Source: Shewanella sp. SG41-4
Lineage (GTDB): Bacteria > Pseudomonadota > Gammaproteobacteria > Enterobacterales > Shewanellaceae
Direction of reading: 5' to 3'
DNA: 33,308 nt
NCBI RefSeq assembly: GCF_014164505.1
Contig: NZ_JACJFI010000016.1
Span: 1 to 33,308 of the forward strand
Under the pieces are notes generated by a model. The model had not been told where the DNA came from. It made no database searches and was given only the letters and a program-made list of their open reading frames with translations. Position 1 is the first letter of the stretch; the number at the start of each line of letters is the position of its first letter. Position numbers and translations under genes: made by a program. This document shows positions 10,342 to 22,756 of the stretch, piece after piece.

Positions 10342-10809
10342 CTAGCGCGTAAAACGATGGATCTGTTGGTTGCTGCTACCGCGCCATAATAGCGCGGGGT
10401 CGGCTTTATCTTGCTCATACTTGCCGTCAATCAACACATTCACAAAGTTCACCACTGCTTGTTGCTGCGGTGTGAGTTCGGTTAGTTGATAACCGGTCCA
10501 CAACCAAATATCTTTATCAGGGCATTCCTGCTTTACCCGCGTAACCAATTTTAATACGCCTTCAAGATTGGCGGGATGCAACGGGTCGCCTCCACTTAAC
10601 GACAAGCCTCGGCGGTAAATACGAGTATCGGTTAAATCGTCAATGATCTGATCTTCTAGTGCCTGGCTAAAGACATGACCCGCATCCGTGCGCCAAGCAC
10701 TTTGGTTATAACAACCTTTACAACCATGATCGCAACCGCTGACAAATAACGTACAGCGGGTGCCCTCGCCGTTGATCACATCAACACTATGGTATGCGCT
10801 GTAATACAT
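10342..10809 (-). CDS. nrdG: Anaerobic ribonucleotide reductase activating protein NrdG
   Basis: This 155-residue radical-SAM enzyme installs the glycyl radical on NrdD. The cluster-binding cysteines C26, C30 and C33 are in GCDHGCKGCYN, followed by SLSGGDPLHP, DIWLWTGYQL and the terminal WRGSSNQ motif, all matching E. coli NrdG (154 residues). Its ATG overlaps the nrdD stop by one base (TAATG), so the genes are coupled. The gene itself is intact, although its only known partner, nrdD, is interrupted here. Confidence 0.97.
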   Translation of the reverse strand: MYYSAYHSVDVINGEGTRCTLFVSGCDHGCKGCYNQSAWRTDAGHVFSQALEDQIIDDLTDTRIYRRGLSLSGGDPLHPANLEGVLKLVTRVKQECPDKDIWLWTGYQLTELTPQQQAVVNFVNVLIDGKYEQDKADPALLWRGSSNQQIHRFTR

Positions 10810-12416
10810 TATAAATGCTTCACTCTTCGCTTAACTTCTTCTTGCTTACCGAAGTTAAATGGTCGTGCATCTGGGCTGCCTAAATAACCACACACGCGAC
10901 GAGTAACAGACACTCGGCTTGGCTCATGATTACCACATTTAGGGCACACAAAGCCCTTACTAGTACAATTGAATTCGCCAATAAAACCGCAATCGTAACA
11001 TTCATCAATCGGGGTATTGGTGCCGTAATATGGCACTCGGCTATAACTGTAATCCCAAACGTTTTCGAGCGCTTCAATATTGTGCTGCATGTTGGGATAT
11101 TCGCCGTAACAAATAAACCCGCCATTGGCGATGGCTGGATAAGGCTGTTCAAAATCAATCTTATCAAAAGGATTTACTTTCTTTTCAACATCTAAGTGAA
11201 AACTATTGGTGTAATAGCCTTTGTCGGTCACACCTGCCACAACGCCAAACTGGGTGGTATCAAGCTGGCAAAAACGGCTGCATAAGTTTTCACTTGGGGT
11301 ACTGTATAAACTAAACCCATAACCTGTTTCTTGTTTCCAAGACTCAGTGGCTTGCTTTAAATGACTAATAATGGCGACAGCTTTATCGCGCAATTGAGCA
11401 TTATCAAACACGTGTTCAGCATTGCTATATAAAGCATTAATGGTTTCGTGAAGACCAATAAACCCTAACGAAATTGATGCTCGGCCATTTTTAAAGATTT
11501 CGCTAATATCATCATCTGCATTTAGGCGTACACCACAGGCGCCTTCCATATAAAGGATTGGTGCTACTCGTGCTTTGACTCCAGCTAAGCGGGCAATACG
11601 CGTTTCTAACGCTTTACGGGCAATTAACAACCGCTTATCAAGTAATTGATAAAAGCGCTGTTCATCTTTGCCTGCTTCCAACGCTATACGCGGTAAATTA
11701 AGGCTGACAACACCTATGTTATTGCGACCTTCGTGGACCAATTGACCATTTTCTTCATAAGCGCCCAAGAATGAACGGCACCCCATAGGGGTTTTAAACG
11801 AACCGGTGACCTTCACGACTTGATCATAATTGAGAATATCTGGGTACATGCGCATACTTGAACACGTTAAGGCCATCTTTTTAATGTCGTAATTAACATC
11901 AGTCGCTTTATGATTCACGCCATCTTTAATGGCAAACACCAATTTTGGAAAGACTGCTGTTTTACGATTTTTACCTAAACCAGCCATGCGTACAGTTAAC
12001 ATCGATTGCTGAATTAAACGCGACTCCCACGACACGCCTAAACCAAAACCAAAGGTCACAAACGGTGTTTGCCCATTAGCGGTATGCAAAGTGTTGACTT
12101 CGTATTCAAGTGACTGGAATGCGTCATGACACTCTTTTTCGGTTTGCGTCATCGCATAACCTTCTACGTCAGCCACTTGCCATTTTTTTGCGACGCTAAG
12201 GTGCTTTTGGTAACTGATTTGCACAAACTCAGCTAACACTTCGTCGATACGGTTAATCGTGGTACCACCATAAATGTGGCTCGCCACCTGGGCAATAATT
12301 TGCGCCGTAACAGCAGTAGCAGTTGAGATAGACTTAGGCGGTTCTATTTCAGCATTACCCATTTTAAAACCATGAGTTAACATGCCGGCCAAATCAATTA
12401 GCATGCAGTTAAACAT
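10809..12416 (-). CDS. nrdD: NrdD C-terminal fragment: catalytic barrel, zinc site and glycyl-radical loop
   Basis: The 535-residue open piece begins at the first Met after the TAA (MFNCMLIDLAGMLTHGFKMG). It contains the substrate and catalytic regions (TANGQTPFVTFGFGLG, CGVRLNADDD, STPSENLCSRFC), four zinc-type cysteines in CYDCG / NCTSKGFVCPKCG, and the radical glycine near residue 510 in RVCGYLG. There is no ribosome site before this Met, so it is probably an internal residue of full-length NrdD and not a real start. Ten conserved residues (HDLDYAPFFP) between the TAA and this Met would be lost. Confidence 0.7.
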   Translation of the reverse strand: MFNCMLIDLAGMLTHGFKMGNAEIEPPKSISTATAVTAQIIAQVASHIYGGTTINRIDEVLAEFVQISYQKHLSVAKKWQVADVEGYAMTQTEKECHDAFQSLEYEVNTLHTANGQTPFVTFGFGLGVSWESRLIQQSMLTVRMAGLGKNRKTAVFPKLVFAIKDGVNHKATDVNYDIKKMALTCSSMRMYPDILNYDQVVKVTGSFKTPMGCRSFLGAYEENGQLVHEGRNNIGVVSLNLPRIALEAGKDEQRFYQLLDKRLLIARKALETRIARLAGVKARVAPILYMEGACGVRLNADDDISEIFKNGRASISLGFIGLHETINALYSNAEHVFDNAQLRDKAVAIISHLKQATESWKQETGYGFSLYSTPSENLCSRFCQLDTTQFGVVAGVTDKGYYTNSFHLDVEKKVNPFDKIDFEQPYPAIANGGFICYGEYPNMQHNIEALENVWDYSYSRVPYYGTNTPIDECYDCGFIGEFNCTSKGFVCPKCGNHEPSRVSVTRRVCGYLGSPDARPFNFGKQEEVKRRVKHL

Positions 12417-12446
12417 CGGGAAAAAAGGTGCATAATCTAAGTCGTG

Positions 12447-12926
12447 TTAGTGAATTTCGCCTTTTTCATGGGCGGCTACCACATCTTTTGGCAGTAAATG
12501 GGTTTTAGCATAATGCTTGGCCACAATACCCGCTAATAAATCACGCTGGGTCGGAATGACTTTGGCATCTTTATTGGCATTTTCATTTAAAATCGCACTA
12601 TCCGATTGCTCAACTAAACCGCGAATAGCACAATTTAATTTACTCTGGGTTTCACGGTGTTTATCTCTATCGTGACGGTACTCAATGTAATGACGCGCCA
12701 CCGACTTAAACGGGCCCGACATCAATAAGTTTTCAACTGCATCTTGTAGTTCGTGAATATCAACTTCGGTCTTCACAGTCATTTGCTGCTCTACCGTCTG
12801 CGCTAACTGCTGTGCATATTGATGGTCGGCTATACCTGCAGACTCCATTGCTGCCACAACAGCCTCTTTGATTCGACATCCATCAAACGCAGTTCGGCAT
12901 CCATCCCTTTTCACTACTACAAGCAT
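12447..12926 (-). CDS. nrdD: NrdD N-terminal fragment: ATP-cone and start of the catalytic domain
   Basis: The upstream piece ends at the premature TAA after 159 residues. It carries the ATP-cone (VVKRDGCRTAFDGCRIKEAV near the N-terminus, IEYRHDRDKHRETQ), which senses ATP and dATP, and then the VEQSDSAILNENANKDAKVI and IPTQRDLLAGIVAKHYAKTH segments that lead into the barrel. Without the rest it cannot catalyse reduction. The protein sequence is otherwise free of odd substitutions, so the disruption looks recent or artefactual. Confidence 0.75.
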   Translation of the reverse strand: MLVVVKRDGCRTAFDGCRIKEAVVAAMESAGIADHQYAQQLAQTVEQQMTVKTEVDIHELQDAVENLLMSGPFKSVARHYIEYRHDRDKHRETQSKLNCAIRGLVEQSDSAILNENANKDAKVIPTQRDLLAGIVAKHYAKTHLLPKDVVAAHEKGEIH

Positions 12927-13018
12927 ACAGCCATCCTTTACAAGCACTATATATAGCGCTTAAATACACACACAACACAAGATAGAGTGTATTAGACACA
13001 TTAACGCTGAGCATTACC

Positions 13019-13032
13019 TTGATCCAGATCAT
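13019..13032 (-). promoter_or_regulatory. Candidate FNR (EtrA) box upstream of nrdDG
   Basis: TTGATCCAGATCAT matches the FNR consensus TTGATNNNNATCAA at 9 of 10 fixed positions. It lies about 93 bases upstream of the preferred nrdD start, a plausible distance for anaerobic activation of class III reductase, which FNR-type regulators control in other gammaproteobacteria. The site is near-symmetric and could also act to the right. Confidence 0.7.
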
Positions 13033-17816: not shown

Positions 17817-18776
17817 ATGACTCAGCTACTTAAAAAGAAAATCCGTGAACTCGATTTTTTCAGTCTACTGGTATTTAAATGTATCTTTGATACTGGTCAG
17901 GCGAATATTGCAGCCAAAATGCTGGCGGTTTCGGCATCCAAGATCAGCCGCAGTCTCAGCTTGCTTAGGATTGCCTTCGATGATGATCTGTTTTATCGGC
18001 GGCAGCAAGGGCTCAAGCCCACACTATTAGCCGAAAACCTGTATCAACCCGTTTATCAATTAATCAATTCCGTAACCAGTCTAGAACAGGTGGTCACCGA
18101 AAAAGCGAGTCAAGACCAGCTGCCGATATTGCAACTGGCTGTGGAGCCGATGCTAATGCGAAGCCTCTCACTCAAACTGGCCGATAAGGCAATACAACAA
18201 ACGTTGGGACCAGTGCGCTTGCATGTTTGGAATGATAACTCGCTCGACATGATCCATAGGGGCGAACTTGATTTTGGGATTGCCTTTGAGGCGTGCGATT
18301 TCAACGAACTGACCAGTGAAAAAGTCTATTACAATGGCTCTGTGTGTTTGGTTGCCAAAGAAACTCATTCCATTTGGCAGTCATATCCCGATATCCGGCT
18401 CGAAGATATCTGTAACTATTCTTTTATATATTTAGTCGCCAAGGGGTTCAACGATAAAATCGATCCTCTGGAACAATTCGCCCGAGAGCAAGATCTCAGC
18501 ACAAGCCGCATGGAAAAGATGGTTAATTATGAAGAGTGGTTAGCCCACTTACAGACCTTGAACAGTATAGCTTTTGCCTCTTCATCGGAAATGGCGTTAC
18601 TCGACAGCATGCTGGGATTCAGATGCGAGTTATTACCCCAACAGGATATTGTCAGATTATTTGATTCTATCAAACAACCCAAAGCTTATTTAGTGGAAAG
18701 AACCCAAGCCCACAGACGTTACCACAATGACATTAGGCAGGAATTACTGACCTTGCTTAATAAATGGTTTAATTGA
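17817..18776 (+). CDS. LysR-family transcriptional regulator next to the decahaem cytochrome
   Basis: This 319-residue regulator has an N-terminal winged helix-turn-helix (about residues 12-70: ANIAAKMLAVSASKISRSLS, LLRIAFDDDLFYRRQQGLKP) and a C-terminal periplasmic-binding-type effector domain. The start is supported by AGAGAG upstream and by normal LysR length. It is encoded 177 bases upstream of, and on the same strand as, the decahaem cytochrome gene, not divergently as many LysR targets are. Regulation of that cytochrome is the simplest guess. The effector is unknown. Confidence 0.9.
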   Translation: MTQLLKKKIRELDFFSLLVFKCIFDTGQANIAAKMLAVSASKISRSLSLLRIAFDDDLFYRRQQGLKPTLLAENLYQPVYQLINSVTSLEQVVTEKASQDQLPILQLAVEPMLMRSLSLKLADKAIQQTLGPVRLHVWNDNSLDMIHRGELDFGIAFEACDFNELTSEKVYYNGSVCLVAKETHSIWQSYPDIRLEDICNYSFIYLVAKGFNDKIDPLEQFAREQDLSTSRMEKMVNYEEWLAHLQTLNSIAFASSSEMALLDSMLGFRCELLPQQDIVRLFDSIKQPKAYLVERTQAHRRYHNDIRQELLTLLNKWFN

Positions 18777-18913
18777 TGGATATTAACTTTATTTTCACTT
18801 TGTGCAATAAGGGTTTTCGGATAGAGGGATTGCCCTTTCAGCATCTATAATCACCTTTCACAAATCAAGTACAAATTCCCAACAACGTTCCTAACTTACC
18901 TTAAGATGAAATC

Positions 18914-18927
18914 ACTGCGATAGCAGT
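18914..18927. promoter_or_regulatory. Palindrome in the decahaem cytochrome leader
   Basis: ACTGC-GATA-GCAGT is a symmetric 14-mer about 33 bases before the cytochrome start. It could be an operator for the adjacent LysR protein or a short RNA hairpin; the sequence alone does not decide. Confidence 0.3.
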
Positions 18928-18959
18928 TCGGATCAATCAAAAAGTGTAAAGGAATGATG

Positions 18960-21278
18960 ATGAACAAAAAAATAAATTTATCTATATTAACATTGGCGCT
19001 CGCTAGTGTTCTGAGCTTAAGCGCATGTGGTGACGGCAACGATGGTAAAGATGGTGTGGATGGCGCAACCGGTGCCGCTGGTTTAGCAGGCCCTTCAGGA
19101 TTACCAGCCGGATCATTTGTCGACACAGTAGCTAACGCTGCCGATTTTGTATTAACCATAGCACCAACAGATATTGTGGTAACCGGTTCAGCACCTTTTT
19201 CGATTAAATTTACTGCGACAGGTAAAAATAACACCGGAGACGTGGTTCCATTTGTTGGTTTAGACACTATCGCGCTCTATGTTACTAACCAAGTAGAAAA
19301 TGCCACTGAAACTGGCGCACCCATGGTGTGGTCCAATAATGCATTGGTCAATAAGTTTGGCACAAGCATGTATTGTACCCTAGACGGCTCAGCCACTACT
19401 CACAGCGGTGATGTTGTTGATGCTTGTACATTAGTTGCCGATGCTGAAAACCCTGGCACTTATACTGGTACTTGGGAACATGATGGCAATGCGCCTGTCG
19501 TGCTTGCTGATGGCAACCCAGAAAGCTTGTTTAGAGTGATGGTTCGTACCTACAATGTGACTGATAGTTCAGGTGAAGGGATTAGTGATAAGTTATTATC
19601 AGCGCCACTCGATTTTATTCCTGCCACCGGTGAACTTGCGGTATCGGCTAAAGATTTAGTCGCTAATACCAGCTGTATCAAGTGTCACAGTGAGATAACT
19701 GGCTATGGTGAAGGTGATGAACGCATCGCTAATATTGGTGCTCATCATAACTATCAGCAAGTTGAAAACTGTATCGCCTGTCATAACCCAGCGAATGCCG
19801 CTGACCCTGAATATGCAGAATTAGGCTTTAACATTGACTTGGGGCCTATGGTTCACACCATTCACTCAGGTGCCTATAATGCTGAACAAGATCTGCTAAC
19901 TGGCAAGGCCCTTGAGTTCAGCAAAATTGGCTCCCCCAACGATCTGGAAGACTGTACTAGCTGTCATACCAGCGATGAAAGCTGGAACAAAAATGTCTAT
20001 GCCCAAGCATGTGTAGGTTGTCATATGGAGGTTGACTTTAAGACGGGCGCAGGCCACTCAGAGTTTAACCTAGCCCAAGCCGATGATAGCCAGTGTATGG
20101 CTTGTCATGCAGAAGGTGATCTTAGTCCTGTTAACGCCCATAAAATTGGCGATCGTGCAGCGACCATAGCAGCGCTTGACGTCAAGGTTAGCAATGTGTC
20201 TTACACTGAAGGCGTTGCCGTTGATGATGAAGATTCATTATCAGTCACACTTGACGTGCAATTTAACGGTCAAGCTGTTGCCGAAGGTTTTGCTTTCACT
20301 GACTATGCACAGAGTAGTCGTGGCGCTCCTCTTGCCTATCTATTGGTAGGAACCGTAGATGAGCAAGGCACTATCACATCAAACTTACAGATGGATTTTG
20401 TCGATGCTAAAGCAGATGCCGCAGGCAAGGTAACCGTAACAACAACGGGTCTTTTAAACCTTGATCAACAAAGTCTGTATCTAGCATCATCAATGCTGCT
20501 TTGTAATAATAAAGCACTTGAATTAGCCGCTTGTGACGGTTCTGAACATCAGGATCGAATTTCAGTTGCGATGCCAACAAAATACTGGAATCTTGCCGAA
20601 GCTGATGGTAGCAAGGCTAACGAGGGACGCTTAAGCCAACCAGAACGTATGACGGCAAGTGAAGAAGGTTGTAATAGCTGCCACGGCACGCTAGTCAATC
20701 ATCATTATGGCAACCTTACGTTTACCCAGTGTGCTAACTGTCACAACGATACCACTCCGGGTTCTGTCTTTGAAGGCGCGTATACCCAATCTGGCGTAGA
20801 TGCAGATGGTGAGTTTGAATATGAAGCTATGCCTGGTGTCAAATTCTACAACCATGATTTGGTGACTGTTGCTCATCGCTTACACAGCGGTATTATGAAC
20901 AGAGGCACCGGCGCCTCTATCTATCGTGACACCGCCAACGAGTTGGTTAACTACTCTGCAGTGCAAACTGAGTGTACGGCGTGTCATAAAGCCGACGCAA
21001 AATTCTTCACCGCCGATGGCGGCCTAACTTCTGGTAAACGTGCGATTGCGGTCAAGAGTAATGACGTGATCAATTACATCTCACCAGTAGCAGAGTCTTG
21101 CCGCTCATGTCACGCCCACGCCAATGAAGCAGCTTACGCTCACTTCAGAAGCAATGGCGCGACAACAGTTGAAGACGCGGCAACGACGGCTAATCTGCCC
21201 GTCGAGTCTTGTGCGACTTGTCATGCTGAAGGTAAAGCTTATGGCGTAGATAAAGCACATGCAGGTATTGTACATTAA
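18960..21278 (+). CDS. OmcA/MtrC-family decahaem c-type cytochrome, outer-surface lipoprotein
   Basis: Ten CXXCH haem sites are visible: CIKCH, CIACH, CTSCH, CVGCH and CMACH (about residues 241-385), then CNSCH, CANCH, CTACH, CRSCH and CATCH (about 573-757). This 5+5 layout with beta domains before and between, and a Cys pair (CX9C, about residues 517-527), is that of the OmcA/MtrC/MtrF family. The signal peptide ends in a lipobox (LSACG), and collagen-like Gly-X-Y triplets follow. At about 772 residues it is longer than MtrC (671) or OmcA (735). The third ATG of the ATGATGATG run is best spaced from AAGGA. It should pass electrons to metals or other external acceptors, but no mtrA/mtrB partners lie nearby. 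Confidence 0.95.
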   Translation: MNKKINLSILTLALASVLSLSACGDGNDGKDGVDGATGAAGLAGPSGLPAGSFVDTVANAADFVLTIAPTDIVVTGSAPFSIKFTATGKNNTGDVVPFVGLDTIALYVTNQVENATETGAPMVWSNNALVNKFGTSMYCTLDGSATTHSGDVVDACTLVADAENPGTYTGTWEHDGNAPVVLADGNPESLFRVMVRTYNVTDSSGEGISDKLLSAPLDFIPATGELAVSAKDLVANTSCIKCHSEITGYGEGDERIANIGAHHNYQQVENCIACHNPANAADPEYAELGFNIDLGPMVHTIHSGAYNAEQDLLTGKALEFSKIGSPNDLEDCTSCHTSDESWNKNVYAQACVGCHMEVDFKTGAGHSEFNLAQADDSQCMACHAEGDLSPVNAHKIGDRAATIAALDVKVSNVSYTEGVAVDDEDSLSVTLDVQFNGQAVAEGFAFTDYAQSSRGAPLAYLLVGTVDEQGTITSNLQMDFVDAKADAAGKVTVTTTGLLNLDQQSLYLASSMLLCNNKALELAACDGSEHQDRISVAMPTKYWNLAEADGSKANEGRLSQPERMTASEEGCNSCHGTLVNHHYGNLTFTQCANCHNDTTPGSVFEGAYTQSGVDADGEFEYEAMPGVKFYNHDLVTVAHRLHSGIMNRGTGASIYRDTANELVNYSAVQTECTACHKADAKFFTADGGLTSGKRAIAVKSNDVINYISPVAESCRSCHAHANEAAYAHFRSNGATTVEDAATTANLPVESCATCHAEGKAYGVDKAHAGIVH

Positions 21279-21312
21279 GTAACGTTACCTATGGATTGAC
21301 CTTGTTGTATAA

Positions 21313-21366
21313 GGGCTCATAACTATTCTTTATCTTAATTGGGGGCCTTAGAGCCCACTTTTTTGG
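21313..21366 (+). terminator. Possible terminator after the decahaem cytochrome
   Basis: GAGCCC (21351-21356) is followed closely by a T-run. It can pair with GGGCTC at 21313-21318 (long loop), or its GCCC can pair with a nearby GGGC. It lies in the right place, about 35-85 bases after the stop, but the stem is not clean. Confidence 0.4.
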
Positions 21367-21517
21367 CGATTGAAAATGTTATCAGCAGTAATTGTGGAGG
21401 CTATGTTTACTTGCTGAATTTTCCTCCAAGAAGCGACAGGTACATTTATCGTCTTTACCTTCTGCACTATTCAAATATATAAATTGAACGGGAATTATCA
21501 ACAAATTGAGTGCAAGA

Positions 21518-21566
21518 TGGAAAATGGAAAATGGAAAATGGAAAATAGAAAATAGAAAATAGAAAA
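21518..21566. repeat. Heptamer tandem repeat, seven units of T(G/A)GAAAA
   Basis: Four TGGAAAA units are followed by three TAGAAAA units with no interruption, 49 bases in all. It lies in the gap between the cytochrome and the convergent 129-residue exported protein. Such perfect short arrays change length easily by slippage. Confidence 0.95.
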
Positions 21567-21698
21567 TGGCGAGTAATACTGTAAATTCAACGCAGTACTA
21601 ACAAAAATGGGTGGCAATTTTCTATCCGCTAAGCCTTTTGCATCCGAGTTTAGCACTAGAGTATATTTTTATTGCAGGGAATTTGCGCTGCAATAATA

Positions 21699-22088
21699 TT
21701 ATAAGCGAAACTGTATTGACAGGCCCATATAAGTTTCCTTGTCTGTTGTATGAATAACAGGCAGTAGAATATATTTGTCTGTTACATAGGCGCCGATAGC
21801 GGAGCCTAGTGCATGTGATAGAGCGTCGGCAAAAGCGTTACGAAAGTCGTTTTCTCCTTGGGCATATTCATAATATTGAGAAATACTTCCTACGACTGTG
21901 CTTATAGTAAATCCCATCCATGCCCTGTCATAGTTCGGCCAGAAGTCATCTGAAATAGCAACTATGGCCCCTGCGGTAACTGCTCCGCCGAACGCATGGC
22001 TAATTTCGCTATTAAAACTTATGCTTCCATTTGCATGGGATTGCGTCGAAAAAAGCAGCGCCAATAAAAGTAAAATAATTTTCCCCAT
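21699..22088 (-). CDS. Small exported hypothetical protein
   Basis: The 129-residue product starts with a clear signal peptide (MGKIILLLLALLFSTQSHA) after a strong ribosome site, AAGGAGGGAATA-ATG. The mature part has two small-residue-rich hydrophobic segments (HAFGGAVTAGAIVAI and ADALSHALGSAIGAYV), and a MGLSIQFRL end that could be a beta strand. The FADALSHALGSAIGA stretch faintly recalls YfiM/DUF2279-type small proteins, but that is a weak resemblance. The gene stands alone in a gene-poor region. Function unknown. Confidence 0.65.
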   Translation of the reverse strand: MGKIILLLLALLFSTQSHANGSISFNSEISHAFGGAVTAGAIVAISDDFWPNYDRAWMGFTISTVVGSISQYYEYAQGENDFRNAFADALSHALGSAIGAYVTDKYILLPVIHTTDKETYMGLSIQFRL

Positions 22089-22493
22089 TATTCCCTCCTT
22101 AAAGCAAACGCATTGCGATATGAGCTTAAAGCTTATCAGAACAACTCTCAGTTGACGTATTTATTTCAGGAAGTAACAACAATATCAACTGTTAGAACGA
22201 GTGTTAGAAATTCGCAAACAACCGTTCTGCTAAACGCCCATGCCGATTATGAGTATACCCAACACCCATAGATCGACAACCGAAAGCCCACAAGTTGTGT
22301 TGAAACATTACGTTGCGGAAAATGAGGGCTAAATTGGTACACCATAATGGCATCAAAATATTTGTAAATACATTTACATCAGATGTGTTATCTAAAGCGT
22401 TTGTGTTTTCATTTATTGCAATAAAAAAAACAATAAACAAGATCAATAAAACTCATAAATTAAATTAACATTTTGGCTTGTAGCCATGAAAAA
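22089..22493. other. Gene-poor stretch left of the possible micro-gene
   Basis: About 400 bases with no convincing gene. An 80-codon open frame on the minus strand (22204-22446) has no ribosome site and an unlikely composition. I see no repeat, no terminator and no mobile-element end here. Confidence 0.4.
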
Positions 22494-22521
22494 TTGTTTT
22501 GACTTTGGCTATAGATATAAT
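22494..22521 (+). promoter_or_regulatory. Candidate promoter of the 19-residue micro-ORF
   Basis: TTGTTT (22494-22499) and a perfect TATAAT (22516-22521) are 16 bases apart. Transcription would begin near 22528, about 70 bases before the micro-ORF start. Confidence 0.45.
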
Positions 22522-22597
22522 TTAGAAAAATTACGAGACACAAGGCGTTATGCACTAACAACCTTCGATTTTATCTTACTACAGTGTAGGAGCTGTT

Positions 22598-22657
22598 ATG
22601 ACATTAGTGGCCAATAGCCTTAAAGTAATGAACCAAGACAATGATATTGCTGGTTAA
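22598..22657 (+). CDS. Possible 19-residue micro-ORF
   Basis: MTLVANSLKVMNQDNDIAG is preceded by AGGAG 5 bases before the ATG, a near-ideal ribosome site. It sits between a plausible promoter and a strong hairpin. The set promoter, leader, ribosome site, short frame, hairpin within about 220 bases is complete enough to be a small-protein or small-RNA gene. It could equally be the truncated start of a lost gene. I do not recognise the sequence. Confidence 0.3.
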   Translation: MTLVANSLKVMNQDNDIAG

Positions 22658-22687
22658 CGGTGATGTCGAATAAACAAAAAACATAAA

Positions 22688-22711
22688 AAATGCAGCCAAC
22701 TGGCTGCATTT
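22688..22711 (-). terminator. Terminator of the mepM-like gene
   Basis: AAATGCAGCC / GGCTGCATTT is a perfect 10-base stem around AACT. On the minus strand it runs into TTTTTTATG, so it ends the peptidase transcript about 45 bases after its stop. On the plus strand a weaker T-rich tail could end the micro-gene. Confidence 0.88.
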
Positions 22712-22756
22712 AATATTTGTGTCACAACTAAAGTCTGTGTAATGAGCCTTAGCTAA

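Follow-up and report, generated by a model that had tools for sequence, protein, structure and literature searches.

We examined the class III reductase gene nrdD in a window of 33,308 nucleotides, which is the whole stretch of Shewanella sp. SG41-4 DNA that was analysed. The gene lies in a 713-codon frame on the minus strand (10809-12947), and the sole internal stop of this frame is a TAA at 12447-12449, codon 160 of 705 when numbered from the first ATG (12926). The nearest nrdDG pair is that of genome G031 (96% DNA identity), followed by that of G090 (95%). Among genomes, S. frigidimarina KCTC 23109 lies closest, and its nrdD is identical to that of G031. The features of the locus are given below.

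12447-12449, minus strand: in-frame TAA, codon 160 of nrdD (sequence, translated frame)
12450-12926, minus strand: upstream piece of nrdD, 159 codons with the ATP-cone and the first part of the catalytic domain, frame open from 12947 (profile match)
10809-12446, minus strand: downstream piece of nrdD, with the rest of the catalytic barrel and the glycine-radical domain (profile match)
10342-10809, minus strand: intact nrdG of 155 aa, encoding the activating radical-SAM enzyme (profile match)
13019-13032, no strand assigned: FNR-like site, identical in G031 and G090, with a single mismatch (consensus match)

On its own, the downstream piece scores above the curated cut-off of the NrdD model NF006732 (940.6 bits, cut-off 657); the upstream piece aligns with the beginning of this model at 178.4 bits. 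When the frame is read with X at the stop, it contains an ATP-cone (residues 3-89), an NRDD domain (115-704) and a glycine-radical domain (581-685). A working class III reductase calls for an uninterrupted frame, and this one is cut at codon 160. The first Met past the stop, at 12416, opens a 535-aa ORF, ahead of which no Shine-Dalgarno sequence was seen by eye. The adjoining nrdG is intact (275.2 bits, cut-off 199). Upstream, TTGATCCAGATCAT at 13019-13032, which G031 and G090 share, departs from the FNR consensus at one position. The window also holds a decahaem cytochrome with MtrC/F domains. These observations bear out the initial annotation, which had described an in-frame TAA in an otherwise intact nrdD frame, no ribosome site for the downstream piece, an intact nrdG, a probable FNR site and a surface decahaem cytochrome. 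The cytochrome, a 774-aa MtrC/MtrF-like protein with 10 CxxCH motifs (18954-21278), is encoded within a segment (17824-22755) for which blastn (E up to 1e-50) found no counterpart in the syntenic regions of G031 and G090. The same segment contains most of a LysR-type regulator (17817-18776).

Next, we read codon 160 in relatives. Among 49 genus loci, drawn from 47 of the 128 other genomes, 48 have Tyr and one has Phe; the column holds Tyr in 72 and Phe in 8 of 80 named genome loci (80 of 584), and Tyr in 107 and Phe in 12 of 119 full-length proteins (from the best 120 of 7990); these three sets overlap. A stop was found in none of them (0/49, 0/80 and 0/119). The two aligned solved structures have Phe (9d3x) and Val (1h78) at this position. 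The earlier statement that the family has Tyr here holds for most of the sequences read. The 46 records from the plasmid collection all fell within the 60-80% identity band, the exact pattern around the stop had no match in viral_contigs, and a literature search did not find a paper on this nrdD stop.

In a search of 129 genomes of the genus, the canonical NRDD domain was whole and stop-free in 121 of the 128 others. In 120 of them the frame spans 705 codons or more; that of G067 has 637, and its start may be broken. Intact canonical nrdD is missing from the remaining 7 of 128, which is a new observation: in G083 the gene is broken into two frames with one TGA, G079, G115 and G120 have a distant second NrdD only, and G096, G114 and G118 gave no NrdD match in the search. 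All seven retain a whole class I reductase barrel.

The initial annotation had proposed that another oxygen-independent reductase, such as NrdJ, might take over, and had called for a search for nrdJ or a second nrdD. The own genome (5.0 Mb in 808 contigs, rated 99.98% complete) contains one NrdD match. In 125 of the 128 other genus genomes there is a single reductase-barrel gene, and in three (G025, G067, G105) it is in pieces, probably through sequencing error. We read this single gene as nrdA, given the presence of nrdB in all 10 of the other genomes tested for it and the size of the barrel gene in the rest. No NrdJ or other class II reductase was seen in the genus pattern of the 128 genomes, and rescue by NrdJ or by a second NrdD is therefore unsupported. 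In the own assembly, PF02867 and PF00268 gave no match either. Here the match of contig C488 (20175 bases) to S. frigidimarina stops at a contig end, at C13:319923; at C13:332792 it is taken up again by the end of contig C76 (9422 bases). Between them, ~12.9 kb of S. frigidimarina carrying nrdA, nrdB, a 2Fe-2S protein and neighbours has no counterpart. We attribute the missing nrdAB to this assembly hole, which has contig ends on both sides and in which the own genes should lie. For the same reason we rejected the argument that nrdD must work since a class I reductase is absent.

A draft of 808 contigs with such a hole also raises the question of whether the base itself is wrong, through a base call or assembly error, with the gene intact in the cell. 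Several observations are compatible with this: only 46 tRNA matches were found, against 104 and 90 in relatives, nrdD is otherwise fully constrained, and the three nrdA genes in pieces among 128, if they are sequencing errors, show that such genes do break in this collection. Against it, the site has no homopolymer, and a second record shows the same end. This database protein, P0121, has 159 aa, of which 158 are identical to the own upstream piece (the difference is E106G), and its last residue is also that of the own piece; its contig has 8691 bases, compared with 33308 for the own one. The same end, with one residue different and on another contig, makes a lone base error less likely. P0121 is the strongest single point for a real stop, although it could come from another assembly of the same strain or be cut short by the edge of its contig. 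P0162, a 160-aa NrdD fragment of another organism (61% identical) on a 755-base contig, ends at the same codon, which we treated as chance or a contig edge. The own downstream 535-aa ORF did not occur as a separate protein among the best 120 matches of either of two protein searches. This counts against a real stop, although the ORF could be hidden among the 119 members of the P0001 cluster.

To place the stop against the background of disrupted genes, we surveyed stretches of 19 own contigs by protein-level alignment, omitting ORFs less than 75% identical and those covered by less than 90% unless split in neighbouring frames. Against G090, 134 of 253 ORFs (49,733 codons) were conserved in one piece, and internal stops occurred in nrdD and in a dubious 124-aa ORF (80% identity); one further ORF was frame-split. 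The reverse control gave 133 of 228 in one piece, with one stop and one split. Against G031, 23 of 40 were in one piece and nrdD alone was stopped, and the reverse comparison (25 of 228) had no stop. An earlier count from DNA gaps had flagged 36 of 132 ORFs with G090 and 34 of 132 in reverse, and with G031 7 of 23 ORFs and, in reverse, 7 of 25; being equal in both directions, these looked mostly like gap-placement noise, and the count was replaced by the protein-level alignment. Similarly, none of the 128 genus genomes has an nrdA that is whole but for a single stop. With such stops nearly absent elsewhere, the one in this highly conserved frame is not explained by chance. Together with P0121, this leaves a wrong base, which the initial annotation had listed among its explanations, as an unlikely reading that still carries some weight.

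We then asked how old the stop might be. Between the own nrdD and that of G031 there are 73.5 silent and 3.5 amino-acid differences (dN/dS 0.0115); the ratio is 0.024 for own against G090 and 0.016 for G031 against G090. Codon changes confined to the own lineage, where G031 and G090 agree, comprise 25 silent and 2 missense changes (E431K, V474I) plus the stop. Over the 179 bases from 12328 to 12506, own and G031 differ solely at the stop. Judged from these ratios, nrdD was strongly constrained until recently, and selection past the stop shows no relaxation. This is expected if the stop is very recent; an error or a functional product would explain the lack of decay equally well. The few own-lineage changes and the otherwise unchanged 179 bases likewise suggest that the stop is very young, or an error, or harmless. 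As a separate observation, dS against S. frigidimarina is 0.05 in the first 159 codons of nrdD (12450-12926) and 0.23 in the remainder, as if the start had undergone a recombination exchange or were under stronger constraint. G090 shows a weaker form of this pattern.

A harmless stop could be one that is read through by a near-cognate or suppressor tRNA, so that the cell still makes full-length NrdD, though perhaps little of it. TAA followed by C, as here, is a weak termination context. The low dN/dS means that the gene still looks selected, and the own assembly has no other reductase, though the hole accounts for that. However, programmed readthrough would be expected to leave the stop conserved among relatives, and every relative read has a sense codon. 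With the surrounding 179 bases otherwise identical to such a relative, there is no new recoding signal nearby. TAA is also the ordinary stop in 101 of 135 conserved genes. Finally, ARAGORN called no tRNA with anticodon TTA, a weak point given that the tRNA set is incomplete (150 of 283 candidates were scored, and two of the 46 matches are partial and were not called by ARAGORN). We therefore regard readthrough, also raised in the initial annotation, as very unlikely. The more specific version, in which readthrough supplies enough NrdD, the enzyme is throttled at translation and the whole frame is still selected, is less probable again. One locus, L116 (contig C149, 190-265), resembles a tRNA-Lys but is damaged; ARAGORN gave it an ambiguous anticodon, Lys or Stop. 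It lies next to a truncated array, which in each of four relatives has six intact tRNA-Lys. By eye, the bases of the damaged copy fit anticodon TTT, with base 33 changed and the stem damaged. We considered it as a suppressor tRNA and tentatively read it instead as a relic or an assembly fault.

The genomes compared represent one per species, and the species or population may be polymorphic for the stop, with the sequenced clone carrying one allele that arose, for example, in aerobic culture. P0001, a 705-aa protein that is intact and 99% identical across the downstream piece, would fit the other allele, and the end of P0121 may mark a branch point between the two. We consider such a polymorphism improbable.

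Taken together, these data suggest that the nrdD stop is a real, recent nonsense mutation that would kill the class III reductase, a reading to which we assign a probability of about 0.7 on sequence evidence. Most likely it is an ordinary loss-of-function mutation, absent from the relatives examined. This agrees in its main point with the initial annotation, which had proposed a cell without a working class III reductase, with a wrong base and readthrough kept as rivals. Tolerance of the loss elsewhere in the genus also counts for the nonsense reading: among the 129 genomes, three have no NrdD match, three the distant form only and one a broken gene.

If the stop is real, translation would end after residue 159 and leave the ATP-cone with a small part of the barrel. 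If translation restarted at Met170, the product would lack the ATP-cone and the HxHD stretch, with what we presume to be the thiyl-radical cysteine at its residue 4. The lineage would then have no active class III reductase, and NrdG would be left without a partner. In the absence of a class II enzyme from the genus pattern, the loss of NrdD would leave class Ia NrdAB, presumably encoded within the assembly hole, as the source of DNA precursors. Strict anaerobic growth would probably be lost or much weaker. A study listed among the references of PMC3458845 reports that E. coli needs nrdD and nrdG for strict anaerobic growth, and PMC4860495 describes strongly reduced anaerobic growth of a P. 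aeruginosa nrdD deletion. The only oxygen-independent route to DNA precursors found here would thus be gone from a Shewanella with a gene for a surface-type decahaem cytochrome, and anaerobic respiration could support its survival but not sustained growth. With intact canonical nrdD missing from seven other genomes of the genus, such a loss would not be unique.

Among database entries, 13 of 94 (P0241-P0334) begin at the same MFNC Met, so a restart there is nothing special. P0036, a 535-aa NrdD of S. baltica, begins at this restart Met as well. P0123 carries the NrdD start of this species group followed by unrelated sequence after KVIP, and represents either another break, distinct from this one, or a contig that is chimeric.

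In comparison with known systems, the gene resembles class III NrdD (NF006732 / PF13597) with NrdG in its domains, operon order and near-identity to the S. frigidimarina NrdD, and differs in that its frame is cut at codon 160. A conserved frame also seems to be interrupted in the short NrdD entries P0229 (E. coli), P0235 (Shigella flexneri) and P0036. The broken nrdD of G083 is alike in this respect, but there the interruption consists of a change of frame plus a TGA, whereas the gene described here has a single in-frame stop and no further decay.
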